NCBI GenBank assembly: GCA_028714255.1
Contig: JAQTMR010000019.1
Span: forward strand, 1 to 42,302
Origin: Phycisphaerae bacterium
Lineage (GTDB): Bacteria; Planctomycetota; Phycisphaerae; Sedimentisphaerales; Anaerobacaceae
DNA length: 42,302 nucleotides
Reading direction: 5' to 3'
In this document: positions 10,580 to 42,212 of the stretch, piece by piece
Layout of the letters: each line of letters begins with the position of its first letter
Numbering within the stretch: position 1 is the first letter of the stretch
Position numbers and translations under genes: made by a program
Notes under the pieces: model-generated
What the model was told of the DNA's origin: nothing
Database searches by the model: none
The model's input: only the letters and a program-made list of their open reading frames with translations

Positions 10580-10585
10580 GAATCG

Positions 10586-10639
10586 CTTGTGGGAATGGAG
10601 TTTCCCCTATAACCGCCCGAAAGGCTGATGACTCCTACA
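10586..10639 (+). promoter_or_regulatory. Fluoride riboswitch (crcB motif)
   Basis: The segment carries the aptamer's invariant pieces in order: GGGAATGGAGTTTCCCC, TATAACCGCC, then GGCTGATGACTCCTAC, which match the crcB-motif consensus closely. It lies between its own promoter and a terminator, 86 bases ahead of crcB. Fluoride binding would stabilise the aptamer, prevent the overlapping terminator from forming, and turn on crcB. Confidence 0.95.
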
Positions 10640-10665
10640 GTAAACAATACTGCGGGAGTTTTTTT
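10631..10665 (+). terminator. Riboswitch-controlled intrinsic terminator
   Basis: ACTCC and CAGTA pair with TACTG and GGAGT around an ACAA-type loop, followed by seven T. The 5' arm is the 3' end of the fluoride aptamer, so the two folds exclude each other. Confidence 0.88.
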
Positions 10666-16080: not shown

Positions 16081-17109
16081 ATGGCGAAAACAACAAAGGC
16101 GACGGCCTGGAAAAAACTGACAGATGATGAAATCCAGCAGATGCGGGTTAGAGACTTTAATCTGCAAATAAAGGGTTCTCCTCTCGAACCGCTCATAGAA
16201 AGAATCTATGATGAGCTTACCGCAAAAGGTATAACCTTTCATCCTCCGTGCTATCTTGCTGATGAGTGGCTTTGTCCGGACAAAGAGCCGATTATTGGTA
16301 TTCCATTTTTTCTGGCCAATCCCAGGTTGAAAAAAATAGAGAAAAAGATTATGTTCGAAGTCGAAGGCGGAGCGGAAAAATCGTGCATGAAACTTCTCCG
16401 TCATGAGTGCGGGCATGCCTTGAACTACGCGTATGAGCTGTATAAAAAAACCCGATGGCGCGAATTGTTCGGCCCTTTCTCAGCCAGGTATTCTGATTAC
16501 TATTACTGCCAGCCCTATTCCAGACGTTTTGTTCTCCACTTAAAAGACAACTACGCCCAGTCCCATCCGGATGAGGATTTTGCGGAAACTTTTGCCGTTT
16601 GGCTTAATCCGAACAATAATTGGCAGGAGAAATATAAGGGCTGGCCAGTCATCAGGAAACTAAAATACGTCGATAACGTGATGAAGAAGCTTGGCAGCCA
16701 GCCTCCCGCAGTTACCGCGACGAGTAATCCTCCCTGGTCGGCTTCACGAATGACTTCTACCCTTGCCGGGTTCTACGACAGAAAACGAAAAGTGCTCGGA
16801 AGCAGCTTCCACGGCTTCTACGACGATAGTCTAAAAGAGTTGTTCAAGGCGGGAAGCTCGGCTTCCTCGACGACCAAAGCTTCCAATCTTCTTCGCTTGC
16901 ATCGTCGCCAGATTATTGATAACGTTGCAAAATGGACCGGACACCGTAAATACGACATTCATCAACTGGTCAGCAGAATAATTATTCGTTGTGATGCACT
17001 CGATTTATATTCTGAAAGCAGTACAATTGACGACATAATAGCCTTGACTGTTTTGCTAACAGCTATTGCAAGAGATACTTTTAGAATCAGAAAAAAGCAG
17101 CGACATTAA
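16081..17109 (+). CDS. Putative zinc-binding metallopeptidase
   Basis: 342 residues. The zinc-binding helix is RHECGHALNY (H108, E109, H112), and a downstream acidic motif HPDEDFAETFAVWL (about 162-175) supplies the likely third ligand, as in the putative zinc-binding metallopeptidase family PF15887. No signal peptide, so probably cytoplasmic. The C-terminal 130 residues are not recognised. Its stop overlaps the next ATG (TAATG), so the two proteins are translationally coupled and probably act in one pathway. What it cleaves is unknown; a peptide made by the coupled ligase is an attractive guess. Confidence 0.8.
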   Translation: MAKTTKATAWKKLTDDEIQQMRVRDFNLQIKGSPLEPLIERIYDELTAKGITFHPPCYLADEWLCPDKEPIIGIPFFLANPRLKKIEKKIMFEVEGGAEKSCMKLLRHECGHALNYAYELYKKTRWRELFGPFSARYSDYYYCQPYSRRFVLHLKDNYAQSHPDEDFAETFAVWLNPNNNWQEKYKGWPVIRKLKYVDNVMKKLGSQPPAVTATSNPPWSASRMTSTLAGFYDRKRKVLGSSFHGFYDDSLKELFKAGSSASSTTKASNLLRLHRRQIIDNVAKWTGHRKYDIHQLVSRIIIRCDALDLYSESSTIDDIIALTVLLTAIARDTFRIRKKQRH

Positions 17110-18125
17110 TGAAACGAAAACTGAATATTACCGCTCTGGTCGATAGCTGGACCATACCTGCTAATGACCCTGACTTCAGGGAAAAGCCGAAAGAGCCCAG
17201 CACCGAGTATCATGTCATCAGGACATTACGCGAACTGGGGCACAGCGTTTCTGTCCTTGGCTGTAAAGATGATATTGTGATTGTGGTAAATACGCTTAAA
17301 GAGAAACAGCCCGATTTGGTTTTCAACCTTACCGAGGCGCTCGATGGAAACCGCTGTATGGATATGAACATTGCTGCGCTTTTGGAAATGCTTGGCATCC
17401 CCTTTACCGGTTCAGGCCCTAAAGGACTGATGTTATGCAGGGACAAGGGACTATGCAAGCAAATGTTGGCCAGCCACAGAATACGTATTCCCGGCTTTGT
17501 TTCCATCGCCCCGCACCAAAAAGTCCGGATTCCCAAATCCCTTCGTTACCCGCTGGTCGTCAAACCGGTATTCGAAGACAGCTCCGAGGGCATCTCCAAT
17601 GCGTCTATTGTCAATAACGAGACGGCGCTGATGGAACGGGTCAAATTCGTTCATGATGGCTGGAGCCAGCCCGCTATAGCCGAGGAATACATCGAAGGCA
17701 GGGAGCTTTATATCGGTATGATTGGGAGTAAGCGTCTTACTATCTTGCCCATACGCGAATGTTTCTTCGATTCTGACAGCTCCGAAGGGCCTCGACTCGC
17801 GACCTACCGTGTAAAATGGAATGCCGGATACCGTGAAAAATGGGGCATCAGATTCGGCTACGCCAAACTTGATGATGCCACCGTTAAAAACATCGAGCGA
17901 ACCTGCAAAAGGGTCTATCGCCTGCTTCAAATTCGCGATTATGGAAGAATCGATATAAGACTCACGCCGGAAAATAAAATTGTTGTCCTCGAAGTCAACC
18001 CCAACGCCGATATCGCTTATGGTGAGGAAATAGCCGAGGCTGCGGAAAAAGCCGGCATCTCGTATGAAAAATTAATTGATAATATTATCCACTTTGCATT
18101 GCGTCGCCGTGAAGGGGCACAATAG
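17109..18125 (+). CDS. ATP-grasp ligase, D-alanine-D-alanine ligase-like
   Basis: 338 residues. ATP-grasp marks: VFNLTEALDG (about 71-80), the GIPFTGSGP turn, the ATP lysine in VVKPVFEDSSEGIS (K152), EEYIEGREL, DYGRIDIRL and the magnesium motif LEVNPNADI. Ddl-like enzymes join an amino acid to a second amine through an acyl phosphate. True Ddl is encoded with the mur genes, so this distant relative beside a metallopeptidase probably makes another peptide or amide. It resembles the C-terminal half of the fusion at 34382-36421. Confidence 0.85.
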   Translation: MKRKLNITALVDSWTIPANDPDFREKPKEPSTEYHVIRTLRELGHSVSVLGCKDDIVIVVNTLKEKQPDLVFNLTEALDGNRCMDMNIAALLEMLGIPFTGSGPKGLMLCRDKGLCKQMLASHRIRIPGFVSIAPHQKVRIPKSLRYPLVVKPVFEDSSEGISNASIVNNETALMERVKFVHDGWSQPAIAEEYIEGRELYIGMIGSKRLTILPIRECFFDSDSSEGPRLATYRVKWNAGYREKWGIRFGYAKLDDATVKNIERTCKRVYRLLQIRDYGRIDIRLTPENKIVVLEVNPNADIAYGEEIAEAAEKAGISYEKLIDNIIHFALRRREGAQ

Positions 18126-18188
18126 CATTCACAACATAGTTAAACAGAAACGAAAAATCAGGATTTATTTATATTGGAGTAATAGTAT

Positions 18189-19265
18189 ATGGCATCTAAG
18201 GTATATTTTATCGAGGCGTCTCTCAGTGACGGCGAGCGAAAACTTTCAGACAAAGCCGTCAAATTATTCAAGGCGGGCAAATTTGCGAACTGCTTTTCAG
18301 AAAATGATTTTACCGCCGTCAAGATTCACGTCGGCGAAGACGGCAATACTACGTATCTAAAAGCCGATTGTCTCAAGGGATTGGTAAAAGAGCTGCTGGC
18401 CTCGAAAGCAAAACCATTTTTAACCGATGCTTCTACTTTATACATAGGCCGAAGGCACAATGCCATCGACCATACAGTTCTTGCTTCGAAGCACGGATTC
18501 GATTACGCAGGTCTTGGGATACCGTTTATTGTTCCTGACGGGTTGTTCGGCAATTCCGGTGTAGAAGTGGAGGTCAACTGCGAAGTTAATAAAAAAGTTT
18601 TTATCGCTTCGGAACTTATGAAGTGCCAGTCGCTTCTTTCGATTGCGCATTTTACCGGCCATCTCGCTACCTGCTTCGGGGCCACGATAAAGACGCTGGG
18701 TATGGGATGCGCAAGTAAAGAGGGAAAACTGAAACAGCATTCTTCTCTTAAGCTCCAGATTAACGACAACTGCGTGCTCTGCGGCGTTTGTTACAAACAC
18801 TGTCCCGCTGATGCCATTACCCTCGGCAAAGTAAAGGCCCATATAGACCAGGACAAGTGCATCGGATGCGCAGAATGCCTGGCTGCGTGCAGGTTTACTG
18901 CCGTTGATTCCGACTGGGGACAGCAGAACGAAGTACTGCAGAAAAGCATGGCTGAACATGCCCTTGGCGTGCTAAAAGGAAAAGAAAATAAAGCGGTGTT
19001 CTTCAACTTTATTATCTCAGTTACCAAAGACTGTGATTGTTTCGATGCCAAAGATATGCCTAATATAATCGATGACATTGGCATAGTTGCATCGACCGAC
19101 CCGGTCGCCATCGATAAGGCGTCCTTGGATTTAGCCGAAGCCAAAGGCAAAAAAAAACTGCCGCAATTAGTCGGAAACAGTGAACTTAATCCGCGTTATC
19201 AAATCGAGCACGCCGAGCGCATCGGTTTGGGAAGTGCCGATTATGAGCTTGTAGGGGTTGATTAA
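18189..19265 (+). CDS. DUF362 protein with two [4Fe-4S] ferredoxin motifs
   Basis: 358 residues. The DUF362 core begins at DFTAVKIHVGEDGNTTYLKA and contains the LLSIAHFTGHLATCFGATIK helix. It is interrupted by a two-cluster ferredoxin segment, CVLCGVCYKHCP then CIGCAECLAACRF (about 190-235). The DUF362 domain resumes with STDPVAIDKASLDL. Proteins of this type are widespread in anaerobes and usually have no assigned reaction. GGAG ribosome binding site. A separate short leader (63 bases) from the ATP-grasp gene leaves it unclear whether they share an operon. Confidence 0.88.
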   Translation: MASKVYFIEASLSDGERKLSDKAVKLFKAGKFANCFSENDFTAVKIHVGEDGNTTYLKADCLKGLVKELLASKAKPFLTDASTLYIGRRHNAIDHTVLASKHGFDYAGLGIPFIVPDGLFGNSGVEVEVNCEVNKKVFIASELMKCQSLLSIAHFTGHLATCFGATIKTLGMGCASKEGKLKQHSSLKLQINDNCVLCGVCYKHCPADAITLGKVKAHIDQDKCIGCAECLAACRFTAVDSDWGQQNEVLQKSMAEHALGVLKGKENKAVFFNFIISVTKDCDCFDAKDMPNIIDDIGIVASTDPVAIDKASLDLAEAKGKKKLPQLVGNSELNPRYQIEHAERIGLGSADYELVGVD

Positions 19266-23927: not shown

Positions 23928-24010
23928 CTGAAATCAAACAGTCAAAAACTGAAATTAGAAGCTGTCGCACCGTGTTCCAAATCGCGAGAACACCGAAAAT
24001 GCGTAACTAA

Positions 24011-24230
24011 CCCCAGGCAGGTTTTCTGACTTGCGTCCTACCGAAAGACTCCTTCCCATCCATTGGAATTTTACTTATGGATAGTGGTAAAATGTCTCTC
24101 GGACTTCCCCCCAAACTTTCTTGTGAAAGCAAGAATGGGGGAAACAGGCGCTTACAGCGGCGCGACCGTCGCGGATTTTAACCGCGTTCCCGTTTGACTA
24201 TCCCGAAGCGACAGCTTCAGGACCTGCAGT
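24011..24230 (-). promoter_or_regulatory. Cobalamin (B12) riboswitch
   Basis: Read on the minus strand: GCAGGTCCTGAAGC starts P1, the core follows as GGGAACGCGGTTAAAATCCG then GACGGTCGCGCCGCTGTAAG, and the 3' end reads GTCAGAAAACCTGCCTGGGG, which pairs back to the start. These are the core, B12-box-like and closing elements of the cobalamin class. The core GGTTAAAAT differs from the common GGTGAAAAT by one base. It precedes the DUF4465 operon and its terminator. Confidence 0.92.
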
Positions 24231-24312
24231 TAAGATATATTTTTTCAAAGAGCAATTCTTTATGATTCTTATCAGGCCGGTGTATGTTCTTCAAGCGAAA
24301 AATAAAATTTTT

Positions 24313-29968: not shown

Positions 29969-30640
29969 TTAGACACTTGGCCTAATGAGACGGTTGGACG
30001 GCAAAACTTTGAACCAGTCCTCTCGGCGAAACGAAACCAAAACCCAGATAAAGACAGAGACAACCAGGCCAAACGTCAGGTTGCTGGCAAAAACTTGTAT
30101 CGTAAGAAGCAGAGCCTTGTTCCAAAATGGACTCAAGACCACTATAGAGAGCGGTTCTTTGTTAAGGCCGTAGGTAATCCAAATAGCAAGCTTAAGAACA
30201 ATAAAAGCGTGTATCAAAATCATTCCCCACAGCAGCGCCCATCCTTTTCGTCTCCATGGAATCGGCCCGGCCAGAATTAAAGCGGTCAGAAACGCTGCAT
30301 ATATGTAGCCCTCCCGACGGCTGTTATGGTCTATGTGTCCGACCGGCAGCATTTTGTCAACTGGGCCTGTTTGGTCTCGATTATAGAAGATAATCCTTAT
30401 ATCGTTTTCTACATCGCTTAGCGGTTGAAAACGAACGACTCCTTCAGGTGTGAGTGATTCAAATAAGAAAGCAACCCCTGTCCTGTAAAGTTTTGAATAG
30501 GCTGCTGCCAATGCCAGGCCCGGCCAGGGAACCATCAGCGGCACATAAATAAGCACAAACGCGCAGAAAAATCCTATGATGTGCTTAGTTGAGATTGGCT
30601 TGATATGTACCGTGTCGATATTTGATTTTGCGTTGCCCAT
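29969..30640 (-). CDS. Membrane protein associated with exosortase H
   Basis: 223 residues from the ATG at 30640, which lies inside the end of the exosortase gene (67-base overlap). An ATG at 30694 would add 18 residues but has no binding site. About five hydrophobic segments (IIGFFCAFVLIYVPLMVPWP, then YIYAAFLTALILAGPIPW, ALLWGMILIHAFIVLKLAIW and ALLLTIQVFASNLTFGLVVS) surround a periplasmic loop. Exosortase H genes are often followed by a membrane protein of this size, thought to be part of the same machine. No catalytic residues are visible. The overlap points to coupled expression. Confidence 0.72.
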   Translation of the reverse strand: MGNAKSNIDTVHIKPISTKHIIGFFCAFVLIYVPLMVPWPGLALAAAYSKLYRTGVAFLFESLTPEGVVRFQPLSDVENDIRIIFYNRDQTGPVDKMLPVGHIDHNSRREGYIYAAFLTALILAGPIPWRRKGWALLWGMILIHAFIVLKLAIWITYGLNKEPLSIVVLSPFWNKALLLTIQVFASNLTFGLVVSVFIWVLVSFRREDWFKVLPSNRLIRPSV

Positions 30641-31221
30641 CGCAGCCACACAATCCAAAACAAGACAGCGAAAAATATAAATAGGGCCTGCCATACATCG
30701 AGGTGCATAATCTCAACAGCCCTGGGAAAATAAACACCAATCAGAAACAGGCTCACTATCCTTACGAAGTTAAGAATGCCTAAAAGCAGTGACCCTGCTA
30801 TAAGGCCGGGAATCTTTCTCAAAAAAGGTACCGGAAAGGCCAGAACAGCGCAGAAGAATAAAGCAATTGGTTCGATGCCGTCACATCCCGGAGCAACACA
30901 GACAGAGAAACTTGGTGAAGAGATGGACGAGCCTGCGACAGTAATATCCTGGCCGAGAAAAGACAATATAGCGCCTGATACCCTGGCATTGAAGGGAAGA
31001 TAAGAAAGCAGAAAATCCCTTTGGTAAAATGGCGTAAATACCGCAAACGCATAAAACAGTCCCATCAGAACACCGAAAATAAGTAAAAACACCATTACAG
31101 AATGTCGAGAGAACCAACCTGTTGCGGCCTCGAAAATAGACCTCTTTTCGTCTTTATCAGCCTTTTTCTTCGGACCGCAAACTACGGCCCGTTTAGGCCG
31201 CCTTCTTTTCTTTCGACTCAT
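30574..31221 (-). CDS. xrtH: Exosortase H (XrtH), IPTLxxWG-CTERM-specific
   Basis: 215 residues with about six transmembrane segments. The exosortase triad is C113 in APGCDGIEPI, R154 in NFVRIVSLF and H173 in IMHLDVWQ, spaced as in the family. A basic cytosolic N-terminus (MSRKKRRRPKR) is unusual but common in planctomycetes. Exosortase H recognises IPTLxxWG-type tails, and the gene just upstream encodes one, so substrate and enzyme sit side by side. ATG at 31221. Confidence 0.92.
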   Translation of the reverse strand: MSRKKRRRPKRAVVCGPKKKADKDEKRSIFEAATGWFSRHSVMVFLLIFGVLMGLFYAFAVFTPFYQRDFLLSYLPFNARVSGAILSFLGQDITVAGSSISSPSFSVCVAPGCDGIEPIALFFCAVLAFPVPFLRKIPGLIAGSLLLGILNFVRIVSLFLIGVYFPRAVEIMHLDVWQALFIFFAVLFWIVWLRWATQNQISTRYISSQSQLSTS

Positions 31222-31339
31222 TGGTGTTGATGCTTCCTTCCTTACAAGTTGTTAGGAAACAAGCGCAGACTCAAGCTCTTCCTTTAGAGTCTGTCTTCTT
31301 ACGCTTTTTTACGCAAACCGCAGTAACTTCCGTTACTGG

Positions 31340-32221
31340 TTATGTTACCACAGTTTTTCTTCTCTTAATAATAACCGCACCAGCTGCCACCAATAGCGCC
31401 GCCATAATAATCAGACCCCATTCGGAAACCGTAGGGATACTGGAAGCCGACGGCAGTTCCGATTGGAAAAAAACATGACCTGCCCCTAATTCAGGGTTGC
31501 CAATGAACCGCACACGTGCCGATACGACGATGTGTGTGCTTAGTGGCGCAATCGGGACATTTGCGATTCTAATCGTTTCATCCGGACTCATATCAAAGCT
31601 GCCTGGTAAGTTGCTCCACAGGATAGTTACGTTCTCTCCGTTCAGATTTTCCAAAGGCACTGGTTCGGACACAAAAGCGTAATTTACCTCGTCGATGGTG
31701 ATGCCAGGGTTATTAAACGGTGATGTTATGTTGATTCCAATAACGTCCTCGCTGACAAAGACAACCTCAGGCTTCGCACAAGCAGGGGCGATAGCAACGG
31801 GTTCCCCATCTTGCGTGATCACGACATGTGACATCTTGAAACCATCTGGCAGCTTATCTAAATCAAGTTTCACACCGAGGTGGATCTTATTAGTAGCCTG
31901 CGGATCGTTCGGAACAGGACCTTCCCACCGGACGACCCCCACTGGTACGCTATCGACCATCGCATCTCCATATGTGGGGCCGGTAAATCCAGGGTGATTG
32001 TAAGATTCAGCGTTCGCAGCCTGGATTTGGGCACCAGTCGCTCCGGCGAAGAGAAAGTCGATATCATTTCCAGCAATCCCGGACGTATTATATAGATCCT
32101 TATTGAACCACTTAATGTTTGCTGCATTCGCATCCTGGTAAAAGGAAAAGACGCAACTAAGAAAAAGCGGAATGAACATCAGGATCCTGTAGTTCTTTTG
32201 TATTGAATATTTGCTTTTCAT
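31340..32221 (-). CDS. Secreted protein with IPTL-CTERM sorting signal, probable XrtH substrate
   Basis: 293 residues. An N-terminal signal peptide (about 1-34) leads to a beta-rich domain of unknown function. The C-terminal signal is IPTVSEWGLIIMAALLVAAG followed by a basic anchor (IPTV at about 262). The core fits the IPTLxxWG rule except for a Val at the Leu position. AAGGAG ribosome binding site ten bases before the ATG. The neighbouring exosortase is the obvious processing enzyme. What the mature protein does is unknown. Confidence 0.85.
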   Translation of the reverse strand: MKSKYSIQKNYRILMFIPLFLSCVFSFYQDANAANIKWFNKDLYNTSGIAGNDIDFLFAGATGAQIQAANAESYNHPGFTGPTYGDAMVDSVPVGVVRWEGPVPNDPQATNKIHLGVKLDLDKLPDGFKMSHVVITQDGEPVAIAPACAKPEVVFVSEDVIGINITSPFNNPGITIDEVNYAFVSEPVPLENLNGENVTILWSNLPGSFDMSPDETIRIANVPIAPLSTHIVVSARVRFIGNPELGAGHVFFQSELPSASSIPTVSEWGLIIMAALLVAAGAVIIKRRKTVVT

Positions 32222-33802: not shown

Positions 33803-34171
33803 TTATTCGGTAACGGTATGCTCACCATACCTGTGAGCCAGCCTGACCGACTTACCTGTTCGCTCGCGGAGGTAATACAATTTTGCGCGTCTTGATTTAC
33901 CGCTTCGAACCGGCCGTATATCAACTACGTTTGGCGAATGAAGCGGGAAGATTCGCTCTACTCCCTCTTCATCCACGATTCGCCGCACCGTAAAGGTCTC
34001 GTTGATTCCGCGACCTCTGCGGGCGATTACTGTTCCGCTGAATGTCTGTATGCGCTCTTTGTCGCCTTCTTTGATTCTGCACTTCACATCTACGATATCG
34101 CCTATTTCAAAATGCGGTATATCTTTTTTCAGCGACTTCTTCTCAATGGCATCCAGTATTTGCGTTTTCAC
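33803..34171 (-). CDS. rplS: Large ribosomal subunit protein bL19
   Basis: 122 residues, the normal size. Signature stretches: FEIGDIVDVKCRIKEGDKER, FSGTVIARRGRGINETFTVR, and FPLHSPNVVDIRPVRSGKSR. bL19 sits at the subunit interface. In most bacteria rplS follows trmD directly; here a 2-kb methyltransferase/ATP-grasp gene intervenes. Confidence 0.98.
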   Translation of the reverse strand: MKTQILDAIEKKSLKKDIPHFEIGDIVDVKCRIKEGDKERIQTFSGTVIARRGRGINETFTVRRIVDEEGVERIFPLHSPNVVDIRPVRSGKSRRAKLYYLRERTGKSVRLAHRYGEHTVTE

Positions 34172-34381: not shown

Positions 34382-36421
34382 CTAAGAAATTTGTATCGGT
34401 TGGGATAACTGACTTTTAGCCTGTGGCAGGGCAGCCTCCTTGATTTTTATATTATTTTCCACCAGTTCAGGCTGTCTTTCAGTTTTTTTCCCCGCAGCGG
34501 CCTGAATTTCCAATCGCTCTTCAGCCGCCTGAAGGATTGCTTTTAACATATCCGAATAAGACATCCCGGCCAATTTTGCCATTTTTGCCAGGTGGCCGTC
34601 CCAGCACCAGCCCGGATTGGGATTGACCTCGAGCAGTTTCGGCTCGCCTTTTGAATTGAGCCTCCAGTCGAACCTGCCGTAGTCCCTGCAGTCCAGTCGC
34701 TCGAACAGTTTCAAACAGCATTCGACAACAAATTTCTCCGTACCCTCAGGCAATTTCGCGGGAACAGAACGGATATTCCAATACGGTGAATCGGGAAGCC
34801 ATTTCGCCTCATAGCCGCACAATCTGGGTATATCAGGTGGTAGGGCAGAGTAGTCTTCTTCGATAATCGGAAGAACCGTGTAGGATTCCGGCAGATTGCC
34901 TACTATTCCTACCGTAATATCTTTGCCGGTCAGAAACTCCTCGACGAGAATGGGTTTTTCATAACCGAATTGCTCTCTTATTTCCGAAACGGCATTGACA
35001 ATTTCTTCGATATTATTCGCGACGCTTCGCTGGGTTATTCCGAAACTCGAATCTCCGGAATTCGGTTTTACGATGACTGGAAATCCGAACGGAAGCTCGA
35101 AAGTATCGTCCTGCGGCCTTATGAAGAACGCATCGGGGACTGGAATCTGCATCTCCATAGCAATTCCGCGTACGAGCGACTTGTCATAACAGAAAGCAAG
35201 ACATTGCGGCCCGCCACCCGTATATGGTATGTTCAGCACTTCCAGCAGAGACGGGATATGCAGTTCTTTGCGGGCGTCGTTATAGTAGCCCTCATCGCAC
35301 AGATTTAAGACAAAGTCTGTTTTTGATTTCAGTTTCACCAGGTCGTTATACAGGCTGTCGTGATTGTTGAGGTATGTAATCTGATATTTGTTCAGGTCTC
35401 TCAAAGCGTTTTTCATCTGGTCAATCGTGTAAAAGTCATCGTCGTCAAAAACACGCAAAGGTTTTAATACGTCCGGCTTCGAAGGGTCGCCGAGAATTAC
35501 GACCATATTGTTTGTTGGCTCCGTCTTTTTCTTCGGGACCGTCCACTCTTTTCTGGCTACAGCCGTCAGTGTTATACGTCTTTCCATCATTCCGAGGTCC
35601 TGATTGCGCCGTGAATCCGCCGTTATCTCGTTGTGGATAGCAAAATCTTTGAAGCCCGCTTTTTTGAACAGGTCCTCCATGTTCTTGCGGCTGTAAAGCC
35701 TTTCAGCGTAAAACTGGTCTGCGACAATGCCTTTTTTAACGTGGGTAACTACTTCCCGCGAGATTAAGCGATGCTTGTCCAGAGAAAGCGAACGCTCCCT
35801 GCATACGAAATAATTTTTATCGACCCATTCCCACGACCTCGGCTGAAATCGTTTTCTTAAATACTCACCGTCGGCAACGTCGATAAGAATTTTCCCCCAG
35901 GGCTTTAACACACGCAGTACCTCTTTTAAGACCCTGATGTCGTCCTGTGCCGTTTCGAAATAGCCGAAGCTGTTCCCAGGAATCATAACCACATCGAAAC
36001 TGTCCGCCTGATATGGAAGTTTTCGGGCGTCTCCCTCTTTGAAGTTGGCGTTCAAACTTTCTTTTTTGCCTTGAGCTTTAGCCTTTTGAATCAGGTAGCG
36101 GGAGCGGTCCAGCCCTTCAACCTTATTAAATCCCCGCCTTGCCAGTTCGAGAGCTATACGTCCCTGTCCGCAGCACAAGTCCAGAATATCGTCCTCCGCC
36201 GACAGCTTGAGGATATTTGAAAACAGGTCCACTTCTTTGGTCGTTATCTGCGTATCATCAATCACGTCCCCGTCTGTCTTCAGGTAGATTGAATTGAAAA
36301 TCCGCCGCCACCAATCAGGCTGGACATGCTCCTCAAGGTCAGGTACAGGCCCAAGCGTTCTTACACATCCAGTTGCGTTTTTATTCTTCTGAAGCAGTTT
36401 GTGATTTGGTTCTACCTTCAT
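34382..36421 (-). CDS. Methyltransferase/ATP-grasp fusion protein
   Basis: 679 residues. The N-terminal half is a class I SAM methyltransferase: ILDLCCGQGRIALELARRGF (about 79-98), EGLDRS, and PYQADSFDVVMIPGNSFGYF. A short linker (residues about 285-310) leads to a D-Ala-D-Ala-ligase-like ATP-grasp: FVLNLCDEG, IPYTGGGPQ, the ATP lysine in VIVKPNSGDSSFGI, VEEFLTGKDI, DYGRFDWRL, and LLEVNPNPGW. It could ligate an amino acid and methylate the same product. The last 40 residues are polar. It lies between trmD and rplS, so it interrupts a universal ribosomal operon. Confidence 0.88.
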   Translation of the reverse strand: MKVEPNHKLLQKNKNATGCVRTLGPVPDLEEHVQPDWWRRIFNSIYLKTDGDVIDDTQITTKEVDLFSNILKLSAEDDILDLCCGQGRIALELARRGFNKVEGLDRSRYLIQKAKAQGKKESLNANFKEGDARKLPYQADSFDVVMIPGNSFGYFETAQDDIRVLKEVLRVLKPWGKILIDVADGEYLRKRFQPRSWEWVDKNYFVCRERSLSLDKHRLISREVVTHVKKGIVADQFYAERLYSRKNMEDLFKKAGFKDFAIHNEITADSRRNQDLGMMERRITLTAVARKEWTVPKKKTEPTNNMVVILGDPSKPDVLKPLRVFDDDDFYTIDQMKNALRDLNKYQITYLNNHDSLYNDLVKLKSKTDFVLNLCDEGYYNDARKELHIPSLLEVLNIPYTGGGPQCLAFCYDKSLVRGIAMEMQIPVPDAFFIRPQDDTFELPFGFPVIVKPNSGDSSFGITQRSVANNIEEIVNAVSEIREQFGYEKPILVEEFLTGKDITVGIVGNLPESYTVLPIIEEDYSALPPDIPRLCGYEAKWLPDSPYWNIRSVPAKLPEGTEKFVVECCLKLFERLDCRDYGRFDWRLNSKGEPKLLEVNPNPGWCWDGHLAKMAKLAGMSYSDMLKAILQAAEERLEIQAAAGKKTERQPELVENNIKIKEAALPQAKSQLSQPIQIS

Positions 36422-36812
36422 ATTTTCATCGACTCCTTATGCCGTAATACGGCAATCTTTGGTTAAAAACAGAATCCGAACTGAGGCGGGGACTCTCCGT
36501 TTTGGGGGGGTGCTCCTCCAGCAGGGCAGTGTCACCCTTGTCGCGGTGTTACCGGCCGATTTGTTAGACTGGCAACACCGGTACGGGTCTTCTTCGTCTT
36601 TCGAGACTTCCAATTGAGACGCCTTTAGTTTCCCTAACAGGCTCGCTGCCCCAGCTTCACAACGCCGGGAAATCAGGGCGAACCTGACATTTTTCAGGAT
36701 TCAGCGGTTGTCCGCTCATGGCGAACTTACACTGATTAATATGGGCGGGCATCATAAGTTTCTGTATGCTTGAAGTCAATAGGGTGTGTATGTTTTTGAA
36801 AAAAAATTATTT
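36422..36812 (-). ncRNA. Candidate structured RNA or long leader between trmD and the fusion gene
   Basis: A 391-base gap. Read on the minus strand, 36510-36720 is GC-rich and full of hairpins: GGTGTTGCCAG with CCGGTAACACC (10 of 11 pairs), AGCTGGGGCAG with CTGCCCTGCT, CCTGTTAG with CTAAAGG, GTCT-CGAA-AGAC, TCAGG with CCTGA and GCGG-ACAA-CCGC. I could not match it to tmRNA, RNase P, SRP, 6S or a known riboswitch. It may be a free RNA or a riboswitch for the downstream fusion gene. Confidence 0.35.
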
Positions 36813-37505
36813 TTAAGCTTCTTCCAGCAGGTCGGGTCGCCATTTCTTTGTGCGTTCGAGCCCCTGCTGGCGCCGCCACTCGGCGATTTTACCGTGGTCG
36901 CCGCTTAGAAGAATATCAGGCACCTTCATCCCCCGAAAAACCTCAGGCCTGGTATATTGAGGATACTCTAACCCGCCGTCGCTGGACGGACTGAAGGACT
37001 CGTCCTTTGACGAATTGTCATCGCCCAGTGCCCCGGGCAGCAGTCTTACAATCGCGTCAATGACTATCATAGCTGCCAGCTCTCCGCCGGAAAGGACGTA
37101 GTCGCCTACTGATATTTGCTCGGCTCCGAGCCCTGTACGGATTCGCTCGTCGAAACCCTCATATCTGCCGGAAATAAAAATCAGCCGCTTTTCCTCGCTT
37201 AGCTCAACTGCTTTTGCCTGGTTAAATTTCTGCCCCTGGGGCGAGAGTAAAATTACGCGTCCCTTTTCTGCTGATTGTTTCTCGACGTGTTCGAAGCAGT
37301 CGAAAATCGGGCCCGGCATCATTACCATACCCTGCCCGCCCCCGTAAGGCTTGTCATCGACCTTTTTGTAATTGTCGGTTGTGAAATCTCTTATGTTAGT
37401 AAGAACGATATTGACTATGCCTGCCTGCTGTGCCCTCTTTAATATCGAGTAACGCAGAGGTGATTCGAACATCTCCGGAAAAAGCGTTAGAACATCAATT
37501 CTCAT
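36813..37505 (-). CDS. trmD: tRNA (guanine37-N1) methyltransferase TrmD
   Basis: 230 residues. SPOUT-knot methyltransferase marks: MRIDVLTLFPEMFESPLRYS, DDKPYGGGQGMVMMPGP, FISGRYEGFDERIRTGLGAE, and SVGDYVLSGGELAAMIVIDA. It methylates G37 of tRNAs to prevent +1 frameshifting. It follows rpsP by 13 bases, so rimM, which usually lies between them, is missing here. The ATG at 37505 has nearby GAGTAA but only a weak ribosome binding site. Confidence 0.97.
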   Translation of the reverse strand: MRIDVLTLFPEMFESPLRYSILKRAQQAGIVNIVLTNIRDFTTDNYKKVDDKPYGGGQGMVMMPGPIFDCFEHVEKQSAEKGRVILLSPQGQKFNQAKAVELSEEKRLIFISGRYEGFDERIRTGLGAEQISVGDYVLSGGELAAMIVIDAIVRLLPGALGDDNSSKDESFSPSSDGGLEYPQYTRPEVFRGMKVPDILLSGDHGKIAEWRRQQGLERTKKWRPDLLEEA

Positions 37506-37518
37506 TACTCTCGTTTGT

Positions 37519-38097
37519 TTACTCTGGCTTTGGTTCCGCGTCAGCTTCGGGTGCTTTTTCTTCGACCTTTGCCTCGGCTTCAGCCTTAGCTTTTGCTTCA
37601 GCGTCAGCTTTTGCTTTTGCCTCAGCTTCTGCCTTAGCCTTTACCTCGGCTTCCGCAGCAGCTTTTTCAGCAGCGGCATCGGCTTTGGCTTTTTCTTCCG
37701 CCGCGGCAGCGTCGGCCTTGGCTTTTTCAGCAGCCTCGGCGGCAGCCTTTTCCGCTGCGACTCGTTCTGCCTTTGTGAACGTTTGGCCTTTGGCACGCAC
37801 TAACACTCTGGCTTTGCTGCGCCGAACTGTTTTTTCCTCTCCGTATTTGGTTTTGATGCCTTGCTTTCGCAAAATCTCTGAAACCGTATCAGACGGTATT
37901 GCCCCGTTGTCGAGCCAGTATTTTACTCGTTCAATCTTGAGCACAATCTGCTTGGATTGGTCTTTTTCAATCGGGTCATAGTGCCCAAGTTTTTCTATAA
38001 TTCGCCCGTCACGCGGCGTGCGGGATTCGATTGCATTGATTCTAAAAAACGGCCGATGCCGTCTGCCCATTCTTGCCATTCTCAGTTTTACTGCCAT
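37519..38097 (-). CDS. rpsP: Small ribosomal subunit protein bS16 with long low-complexity C-terminal extension
   Basis: The first 85 residues are normal bS16: VKLRMARMGRRHRPFFRINA, DGRIIEKLGHYDP, VKYWLDNGAIPSDTVSEILR. From about residue 110 on, the protein is nearly all Ala, Lys and Glu in a repeating pattern (KAKADAAAAEEKAKADAAAE and variants) to residue 192, twice the normal length. Such helical tails are seen on ribosomal proteins of some planctomycetes. The repeats make the opposite strand an open frame, which is a shadow. Confidence 0.95.
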   Translation of the reverse strand: MAVKLRMARMGRRHRPFFRINAIESRTPRDGRIIEKLGHYDPIEKDQSKQIVLKIERVKYWLDNGAIPSDTVSEILRKQGIKTKYGEEKTVRRSKARVLVRAKGQTFTKAERVAAEKAAAEAAEKAKADAAAAEEKAKADAAAEKAAAEAEVKAKAEAEAKAKADAEAKAKAEAEAKVEEKAPEADAEPKPE

Positions 38098-38633: not shown

Positions 38634-40082
38634 TTATCGCCGTTTTCTTTTTCCTTTTCGGATAATTGTCCTTTTTCGTCTCGACCGCTGCTTTATTTTT
38701 CTGCCAGAGCTCATAGCCGCGCTCATCGCGTCCATATTAAATCCGCCCGAAAAAAGACTCTTAAGCCCGCCGAGCCTTCCGCCGCTAAGCGCCTTCATCA
38801 TGTCCCTGCTGCGCGTAAATGTCTTCACCAGGCCGGAAACGTCGTTGACCTCTACCCCCGCTCCTGCCGCGATTCGTCTCCGCCGCGATGAGTCTATTAC
38901 ATCGGGCTCGCGCCTCTCGGCAAGCGTCATCGAATGTACTATCCCTTCCATCCTTTGCAGTTCGCCATCGTCGAAGTCCATGTCCCCAAGCTGGCTGCCC
39001 ATCCCCGGCATCATCTTGAGCATATCTTTCATCCCGCCCATTTTTTTTACCGACTGCATCTGCTTGAGAAAATCATCGAAGCCGAAGCTGCCCTTGGCCA
39101 TCTTCTTTTGAAGCTTTTCTGCTTCCCCGGCGTCGAACTGCTCCTGTGCCTTCTCCACCAGCGTTACGACGTCACCCATGCCGAGAATTCTCCCTGCCAT
39201 CCGGTCGGGATGAAATTCTTCGAGCTTGTCCGTCTTTTCGCCTACCCCGATGAACTTAATGGGCTTGCCTGTCACCGCCTTTACGCTAAGCGCAGCTCCG
39301 CCTCGTGCGTCACCGTCTAATTTCGTAAGGATAACGCCGTCAAGCTCCAGCCGTTCGTTGAATTCTTTCGCTGAATTGACCGCGTCCTGGCCGGTCATCG
39401 CGTCGCAGACCAGATAAATCTGGTGCGGACTGACCGCCTTTGCAACGTCGGCGACCTCTGTCATCATCTCTTCGTCTATATGTAACCGGCCGGCGGTATC
39501 TAAAACAATTACATCGAAGCCGTTTTGCTGCGCGTGTTTTATCGAATTTTTCGCGACCTTGACTGCGTCTCCCGGAAGGGATCCTGTGGACTTGCTTTCT
39601 TCGCGATAGACCTCCGTATTTATCTGCTGGCCCAAAACAATCAACTGCTCGATAGCCGCGGGCCTGCGAAGGTCGTCAGCAACCAATAAAGGCTTCTTGC
39701 CCCTGGCGATTAAGTATTGTGCCAGCTTTGCTGCGGTTGTTGTTTTACCGCATCCCTGAAGACCGGCTAACATAATTATCGTGGGCCCGGGCGATACAAA
39801 ATAGATTTTACTATCGACCGGCCCCATCAGCTCGGTCAGCTTATCGTTGACGATTTTTACAAGAACCTGGCCGGGATGAAGGCTCTTTATCACCTCTGCC
39901 CCGATGGCAGCTTCGGTAACGTCCTTGCAGAACTGCTTGACCACGTTGTAGTGGACGTCCGCTTCTAAAAGTGCCTTGCGCACGTCGCGCATAGCGTCTG
40001 ATATGTTGGCTTCGGTGATTCTGCCTCTGCCGGACAGCGACCGGAAAACAGAGTTGAATTTTTCAGTTAATGACTCAAACAC
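38634..40082 (-). CDS. ffh: Signal recognition particle protein Ffh
   Basis: 482 residues. The NG GTPase has the P-loop GLQGCGKTTTAAKLA, DDLRRPAAIEQL, DTAGRLHIDEEM and TKLDGDARGGAALS. The M domain has the RNA-binding MTLAERREPDVIDSSRRRRI. The tail is basic rather than methionine-rich. Ffh with SRP RNA delivers nascent membrane proteins to FtsY. It heads the minus-strand run ffh, small protein, rpsP, trmD, as in the common ffh-rpsP order. Confidence 0.97.
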   Translation of the reverse strand: MFESLTEKFNSVFRSLSGRGRITEANISDAMRDVRKALLEADVHYNVVKQFCKDVTEAAIGAEVIKSLHPGQVLVKIVNDKLTELMGPVDSKIYFVSPGPTIIMLAGLQGCGKTTTAAKLAQYLIARGKKPLLVADDLRRPAAIEQLIVLGQQINTEVYREESKSTGSLPGDAVKVAKNSIKHAQQNGFDVIVLDTAGRLHIDEEMMTEVADVAKAVSPHQIYLVCDAMTGQDAVNSAKEFNERLELDGVILTKLDGDARGGAALSVKAVTGKPIKFIGVGEKTDKLEEFHPDRMAGRILGMGDVVTLVEKAQEQFDAGEAEKLQKKMAKGSFGFDDFLKQMQSVKKMGGMKDMLKMMPGMGSQLGDMDFDDGELQRMEGIVHSMTLAERREPDVIDSSRRRRIAAGAGVEVNDVSGLVKTFTRSRDMMKALSGGRLGGLKSLFSGGFNMDAMSAAMSSGRKIKQRSRRKRTIIRKGKRKRR

Positions 40083-41738: not shown

Positions 41739-42212
41739 TTAATGCCTTTTTACATATGCAATTTTTTGCTCCAGTTCTTTCTGGTTGTAACAAAACTGCT
41801 TATCGAAACCTCGCGACCATAACCTTGTATTGAAACCTGAATTTCTCAAGGCAACTCTGGCAGCGTTCTTGTAGTGACTGACTGTTTCTTCGATTGACAA
41901 CGCATCTTTTTCGACAACAACGTGCACATGATTTGAATATACAATTATAGCCGATATCTTCTGGTTTAATGCCAAGGCCTTTTCCTTAATCGCTGTTTCA
42001 ACAATCATTTTTTGGCGGCGATTTAGTCTGACCGGCGAACATTTCAATCGTGATAGGTTATCTTTTTCCAGCGATTCGGACGGTTTAAGAACCTCTCCGT
42101 TTTTGACGTATCCCTTTTTGTGACCCTGAAGCCACGTTCCATAAGTTGTCCACGTCAACATATAACCTGCGAGTTTTTTGTTTGTGTTTGATATCGTTAT
42201 TTTTTGAATCAT
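41739..42212 (-). CDS. REP-associated tyrosine transposase (RAYT, Y1 family)
   Basis: 157 residues. The HUH nuclease is recognised by the metal motif SNHVHVVVEK and the catalytic tyrosine in VSHYKNAAR. It has the typical opening MLTWTTYGTWLQGHKKGY. RAYTs cut and move REP palindromes, as known for TnpA-REP. The end, KIAYVKRH, is shorter than in many relatives, which continue past a YxxxNP-like stretch, so the C-terminus may be clipped. REP palindromes stand just outside both ends in inverted orientation, the usual RAYT layout. Confidence 0.88.
   Translation of the reverse strand: MIQKITISNTNKKLAGYMLTWTTYGTWLQGHKKGYVKNGEVLKPSESLEKDNLSRLKCSPVRLNRRQKMIVETAIKEKALALNQKISAIIVYSNHVHVVVEKDALSIEETVSHYKNAARVALRNSGFNTRLWSRGFDKQFCYNQKELEQKIAYVKRH

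Follow-up and report, generated by a model that had tools for sequence, protein, structure and literature searches.

Gene Location and Question

The DNA examined here, hereafter the window, is a stretch of 42,302 nucleotides from a Phycisphaerae bacterium (contig JAQTMR010000019.1). Between trmD and rplS it carries a gene for a methyltransferase fused to an ATP-grasp ligase resembling D-alanine-D-alanine ligase (Ddl). The question is whether this location among genes for translation says what the enzyme does and, if it does not, what the protein itself can tell. An earlier note on this DNA regarded the position within ffh-rpsP-trmD-rplS as meaningful. The results below show that the location argument fails and that the protein itself deserves attention. 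Its close versions, scattered in sediment bacteria and archaea, suggest a widely traded pathway, as yet without a name, that leads to a small methylated metabolite.

The fusion gene (34382..36421, minus strand) encodes 679 amino acids from an ATG start with an AAGGAG ribosome-binding site upstream; the plus strand of the same interval contains 15 stops. The N-terminal part is a class I S-adenosylmethionine (SAM) methyltransferase domain (approximately residues 29-289; 35555..36337, minus), and it is followed by an ATP-grasp ligase domain with the fold of D-Ala-D-Ala ligase (approximately residues 303-640; 34502..35515, minus). Pfam placed Methyltransf_25 on residues 79-176 and Dala_Dala_lig_C on residues 444-631, both far over the cut-off. 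The C-terminal residues, 641-679 (34385..34501, minus), form a variable tail modelled at low confidence by AlphaFold2, with pLDDT below 50 from residue 643. The 679-residue fusion and its place between trmD and rplS were therefore as the earlier note had described them, and the strand, which it left unstated, is minus.

In comparison with the homologue in a relative (genome G017), dN/dS was approximately 0.10 in each half of the fusion, and pN in the tail was high relative to both domains. Purifying selection maintains both domains. Because of these low ratios in both halves, and because full-length relatives occur across two domains of life, the fusion is not a chance open reading frame. The AlphaFold2 model of the whole chain had a mean pLDDT of 86.8 and a pTM of 0.56. 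The prediction of linked active sites proposed in the earlier note thus succeeded for each domain, which is well modelled, and not for their mutual placement, which is uncertain given the whole-chain pTM; a claim of channelling would draw no support from this model. NCBIfam produced only sub-threshold matches among the matches listed and no curated name, and no named family for the fusion was found. The open-access literature searched contained no account of a methyltransferase/ATP-grasp fusion; subscription papers were outside the scope of that search.

Setting between trmD and rplS

On the minus strand, the order is ffh (38634-40082), rpsP (37519-38097), trmD (36813..37505), the fusion, rplS (33803..34171), and then yraN- and tatD-like genes, all named by sequence. 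The open reading frames of trmD and rplS were also identified by homologue matches, and we treat these two genes as upstream and downstream neighbors outside the system. The product of rpsP, ribosomal protein S16, has a long repeat tail rich in alanine, lysine, and glutamate. An IS200-type transposase-like gene of the REP-associated kind, judged by sequence, lies on the same strand (41739-42212, minus).

The positions of trmD and rplS were determined in 45 genomes of the bacterial family, and 24 pairs were located on one contig and strand. The interval between the two genes was 1-12 kb in 13 of these pairs and 56-348 bp in the other 11, one of which, from a genome of the same genus (G001), had the genes 155 bp apart with no fusion between them. 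Only 3 of the 13 open gaps were occupied by the fusion; 10 were open without it. Insertions between trmD and rplS have thus recurred in the family, the fusion being one of several, and for this reason location was rejected as a functional clue.

A sample of 60 genomes of relatives included 9 others with a full-length fusion, one of which (G017) had it twice, the reading frame of one copy being broken; the remaining relatives had only Ddl, stand-alone ATP-grasps, or stand-alone methyltransferases. The fusion adjoined trmD only in the window, on contig C173 of G017 (L008/L058), in G029 (L039), and in G034 (L041). It was situated away from trmD at L037, L038, and L042-L045 and at loci in other phyla, where contigs were long enough. 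The search of other genomes thus did not find the fusion always in this operon, and across carriers it does not belong to ffh-rpsP-trmD-rplS. Its frequency in unrelated positions, which the earlier note had named as grounds for dropping its idea, counts against the location half of that idea only. The ribosome-gene location of the fusion in the window genome is incidental. The second copy in G017 (L037, 5794-7792) has its frame break near residue 570, which may reflect strain mixture, sequencing error, or decay.

Leader RNA and Putative Promoter

Exactly 391 bp (36422-36812) separate trmD from the fusion. On the minus strand, the folding of this gap was better than that of every one of 100 dinucleotide shuffles (z = -3.5), which bears out the earlier mention of a 391-base structured gap. 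We assign a structured leader RNA to 36422..36745 (minus) from the folding of the gap and from homologous leaders, which precede the fusion in L058, L037, and, in part, L039. Across three sequences, the central hairpin retained its pairing through three double-sided changes. The leader had no Rfam match at the gathering score and no meaningful match at a relaxed threshold. The leader was rejected as a family-wide regulator, since four related loci were the only ones in which it was found; in L041 the gap measures 66 nt and contains no leader.

A putative sigma-70-like promoter, TTGACT-17-TATGAT, was located at 36751..36779 (minus) with 10/12 matches in the scan. The scan total was not above that of shuffles, so the promoter call rests on recurrence of the block TATTGACTT at the same place in the window, L058, L037, and L039. 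The L037 contig shows no trmD, yet it has this block and a related leader before the fusion. The fusion may therefore have its own transcription start, and it appears to bring along its own promoter and leader. Elsewhere in the window, a cobalamin riboswitch (23999-24242, minus) and a fluoride riboswitch (10582-10644, plus) scored over the gathering score.

Distribution and Phylogeny

A survey of one genome per species, covering approximately 85,000 species, recovered at least 498 relatives of the fusion, and the best 80 loci all spanned both halves. The 82 homologues aligned to the protein of the window were full length and 50-76% identical to it. The sources included Planctomycetota, Atribacterota, Desulfobacteraceae, Desulfococcaceae, Spirochaetota, Calditrichota, Omnitrophota, Lokiarchaeota, Jordarchaeia, Methanophagales, and Methanosarcinaceae. 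Most carriers are metagenome bins, in which stray contigs are possible; in Desulfonema magnum (L096), the fusion is on a complete isolate chromosome. At a threshold of E = 1e-80, and with each sample containing its center genome, which was picked as a carrier, the fusion was present in 12 of 392 sampled genomes of Planctomycetota (3%), 22 of 119 in the phylum of the Lokiarchaeota genome (18%), 7 of 198 in the phylum of Desulfonema, and 31 of 50 in Atribacterota (62%).

A tree built from 92 sequences showed the archaeal or bacterial label switching 7 times, with at least 3 of the switches forced by well-supported branches. This mixed tree fits repeated transfer of the fusion between bacteria and archaea. 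Full-length copies were absent from plasmids, and none were found in viral contigs. A defense role was considered and rejected; the match in question, to MADS mad2 (E = 1.5e-16), involved the methyltransferase domain only.

Neighbors and the M14 Partner

The nearest upstream gene was on the same strand as the fusion in 84 cases and on the opposite strand in 63, and the nearest downstream gene in 90 and 64, respectively. Among 118 same-strand neighbors there was no dominant family, in a search that systematically covered reading frames down to 60-80 amino acids; short precursor genes of a graspetide or other clustered peptide pathway might lie below that size. Since orientation was only mildly biased and no neighbor family dominated, the fusion for the most part stands alone. 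Neighbors encoding an aldo-keto reductase, an M32 peptidase, or MarC were set aside as clues to function because they look lineage-specific.

One partner did recur, an M14-type amidohydrolase of the AstE/AspA family (PF24827). It adjoined the fusion, on either side, in L050, L066, L096, L128, and L131, with approximately 58-64% identity among these copies, and decayed remnants of it were beside the fusion in L038 and L051. Full-length M14 was present in 8 of 26 fusion genomes tested compared to 0 of 14 without the fusion; when three genomes that had been picked for adjacency were removed, the counts were 5 of 23 carriers and 0 of 14 non-carriers (p of approximately 0.08). In the 392 genomes of the phylum of the window, the sole two full-length copies were within the 12 fusion carriers, unlinked in G419 and adjacent in G425, a co-occurrence with a chance of about 66/76,636 (approximately 0.0009). 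A fragment was present in the non-carrier G396. In G009 and G034, the locus of M14 is conserved, with priA-like and hydroxyglutarate-oxidase-like genes next to it (names by sequence), and the non-carrier G018 (L230) has a 49-residue M14 relic in the same setting near the priA-like gene. In a second phylum, Desulfobacterota, M14 was found in 1 of 198 genomes; that one was the chosen center and hence adds no support.

M14 seems to need the fusion and not vice versa, a pattern expected of a turnover enzyme. It was absent from the genome of the window and from every Asgard and Atribacterota carrier in which it was sought, and the link therefore says little about the core reaction. One long same-strand cluster in Desulfococcaceae (L225, 2889-14773) combines the fusion and M14 with a second ATP-grasp, a gamma-glutamyltranspeptidase, an N-formylglutamate amidohydrolase, a carbon-nitrogen hydrolase (nitrilase/GNAT), and an amino-acid permease. 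Next to another M14 there is a divergent RimK.

The Two Catalytic Halves

Modelled alone, the methyltransferase half had a pTM of 0.83. Its Rossmann core is present, and the class I SAM-binding motif DLCCGQG is conserved in the family, consistent with the earlier proposal that the enzyme could methylate. The closest folds were small-molecule methyltransferases, many of them N-directed: CcbJ, CypM, TylM1, glycine sarcosine N-methyltransferase, and NmbA. These share with the fusion the class I Rossmann fold, a motif-I DLxCGxG, FGYFE, and the beta cap. NmbA (9ri2) was also the best PDB sequence match (E = 2.7e-21), superposing with Z = 21.5 over 202 residues at 3.1 A. NmbA is a bacillithiol N-methyltransferase that is reported to act on the cysteine nitrogen (PMC12719100). 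However, identity to NmbA and the other small-molecule N-methyltransferases was only about 15-26% in structural alignment, and the fusion differs from them in being joined to a ligase and in having near-invariant cap motifs of its own (RSWEW, FVCRER, ADQFYAERLY, and QDLGMM). In the structure comparison, the C-methyltransferases PsmD and SgMT scored about as well as the N-methyltransferases. For this reason N-methylation is only a lean, methyltransferase families being a poor guide to the methylated atom.

The ATP-grasp half superposed on Ddl structures with Z of 26-29 over approximately 290 residues. Among 83 sequences, the ATP and magnesium residues K452, K540, R583, D585, and N600 were invariant and E598 was conserved in at least 90%; we take these to correspond to K144, K215, R255, D257, E270, and N272 of E. 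coli DdlB. The fusion thus shares with Ddl (PF07478, TIGR01205) the fold, the ATP-grasp core, and the ATP and Mg ligands. In contrast, it scored about half the NCBIfam cut-offs for a D-alanine-D-alanine ligase (130 bits against 243 for NF002378 and 122 against 246 for TIGR01205). The Ddl of the same genome (L003), a normal enzyme whose gene adjoins murB- and ftsQ-like genes (names by sequence), has the motifs GGIGAERDIS, LHGMFGEDG, HAKY, and SHSLLP; their counterparts in the fusion are GDPSKPD, NLCDEGYYN, EAKW, and WDGHLAK, largely invariant in the 83 sequences. The Glu of GGxSAExxIS and the His of HGxxGEDG, which mark the first D-Ala site of Ddl, are absent from the fusion. Both the first-substrate motifs and the loop for the C-terminal substrate have therefore been replaced, the former by GDPSKPD and NLCDEGYYN, with KW and PNPGWCWDG following.

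A paralogous stand-alone ATP-grasp ligase lies at 17109..18125 (plus), recognized by Pfam and by its identity to the fusion. It was 33% identical to fusion residues 339-638 over 300 residues (E = 1e-42), as the earlier note had seen, and it is closer than the genome's own Ddl, which was 29% identical to the ATP-grasp half (E = 1e-13). It shares with the fusion EVNPN at the Mg site and KW in place of KY; it differs in standing alone, in its first-substrate motifs, and in its genomic setting next to a Peptidase_Mx gene. The region 16081-19265 contains a zinc-peptidase-like gene, this ligase, and a DUF362 ferredoxin in a row, and many relatives have two ATP-grasp genes in tandem.

Proposed Function and Alternatives

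Our main reading, to which we give a probability of roughly 55%, is that the fusion combines two functions, those of a methyltransferase and of an amide ligase, to produce a small N-methylated amide or a dipeptide-like metabolite, and that it has been widely exchanged. The N-terminal domain would transfer a methyl group from SAM, and the most likely acceptor is an amine carried by an amino acid or a small peptide. The ATP-grasp domain would convert a carboxylate to an acyl phosphate and then join it to an amine. The product would arise in the cytosol, its precursors being common ones and no dedicated operon being needed, and in some hosts the M14-type amidohydrolase might cleave or recycle the amide. 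The gene would have spread between bacteria and archaea of apparently anoxic habitats, as judged by carrier names, and in the window genome it would be a separately transcribed cassette in the often-opened trmD-rplS site. We infer the N-methylation, the amide product, the order of steps, the role of M14, and the separate transcription, the chemistry from fold and residues. Small-metabolite ATP-grasp ligases, such as those of the bacilysin type, form amide bonds on free small molecules and sometimes have methyltransferases in their clusters. Unlike these dipeptide and amide ligases, the fusion combines ligase and methyltransferase in one chain, has no conserved cluster, and is spread over two domains of life.

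The nearest fold and sequence are those of D-Ala-D-Ala ligases, and the enzyme might accordingly be read as a variant D-Ala-D-X ligase with a methyltransferase that alters peptidoglycan precursors. We regard this as extremely improbable: the D-Ala motifs of Ddl, including the Tyr after the catalytic Lys and SHSLLP, are missing, the genome already has a normal Ddl, and the Lokiarchaeota, Methanosarcinaceae, and other archaea among the carriers, all without peptidoglycan, make a cell-wall role unlikely. A translation-linked modifier of a ribosomal protein, tRNA, or rRNA would suit the trmD-rplS site in the window genome and three relatives, and RimK-type ligases would provide a parallel. This is quite improbable, however, as no translation gene recurs beside the fusion elsewhere, insertions into the interval are common in the family, and sporadic presence makes a core ribosomal role unlikely.

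ATP-grasp enzymes build glutathione-type peptides, and the product could also be a low-molecular-weight thiol bearing an N-methyl group, analogous to N-methyl-bacillithiol or glutathione and serving redox or metal protection in anaerobes. The match of the methyltransferase half to NmbA and the gamma-glutamyltranspeptidase in one Desulfococcaceae cluster are in favor of such a thiol; yet no thiol-handling gene recurs near the fusion, and archaea carry it although no bacillithiol (bsh) pathway is reported in archaea (PMC12719100). We consider this explanation unlikely. The identity between the two ATP-grasps of the window led the earlier note to suppose that both loci may make related peptides, and a ribosomal-peptide or dipeptide antibiotic pathway in common with the 17109 locus would account for it. 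That is highly improbable, since neither transporter nor tailoring genes recurred among the neighbors surveyed and enzymes of the 17109 type are common among the searched relatives that lack the fusion.

Returning to the bifunctional methyltransferase and amide ligase, an enzyme found at approximately 65% identity across bacteria and archaea, lone, and apparently moved horizontally would be expected to make a product generally useful in many cell backgrounds. Because one gene combines two recognizable activities, that product could be sought, and it may be a new metabolite of mostly uncultured deep-sediment microbes. A bolder version, which we advance tentatively and somewhat doubt, is that the fusion defines a mobile and undescribed pathway that crosses between domains, in which one polypeptide N-methylates and ligates to give a new small metabolite (an osmolyte, thiol, or signal) in anoxic-sediment bacteria and archaea, among them most of the Atribacterota sampled and roughly a fifth of the phylum that contains Lokiarchaeota, with M14 as its dedicated turnover enzyme in some hosts.

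Additional Feature of the Window

Downstream of the trmD-rplS region, at 30574-32221 (minus), an exosortase-like membrane protein with an APGCDGI motif adjoins a secreted protein that has IPTVSEWG, a membrane helix, and KRRK at its end; by sequence, these two are possibly a dedicated sorting pair.
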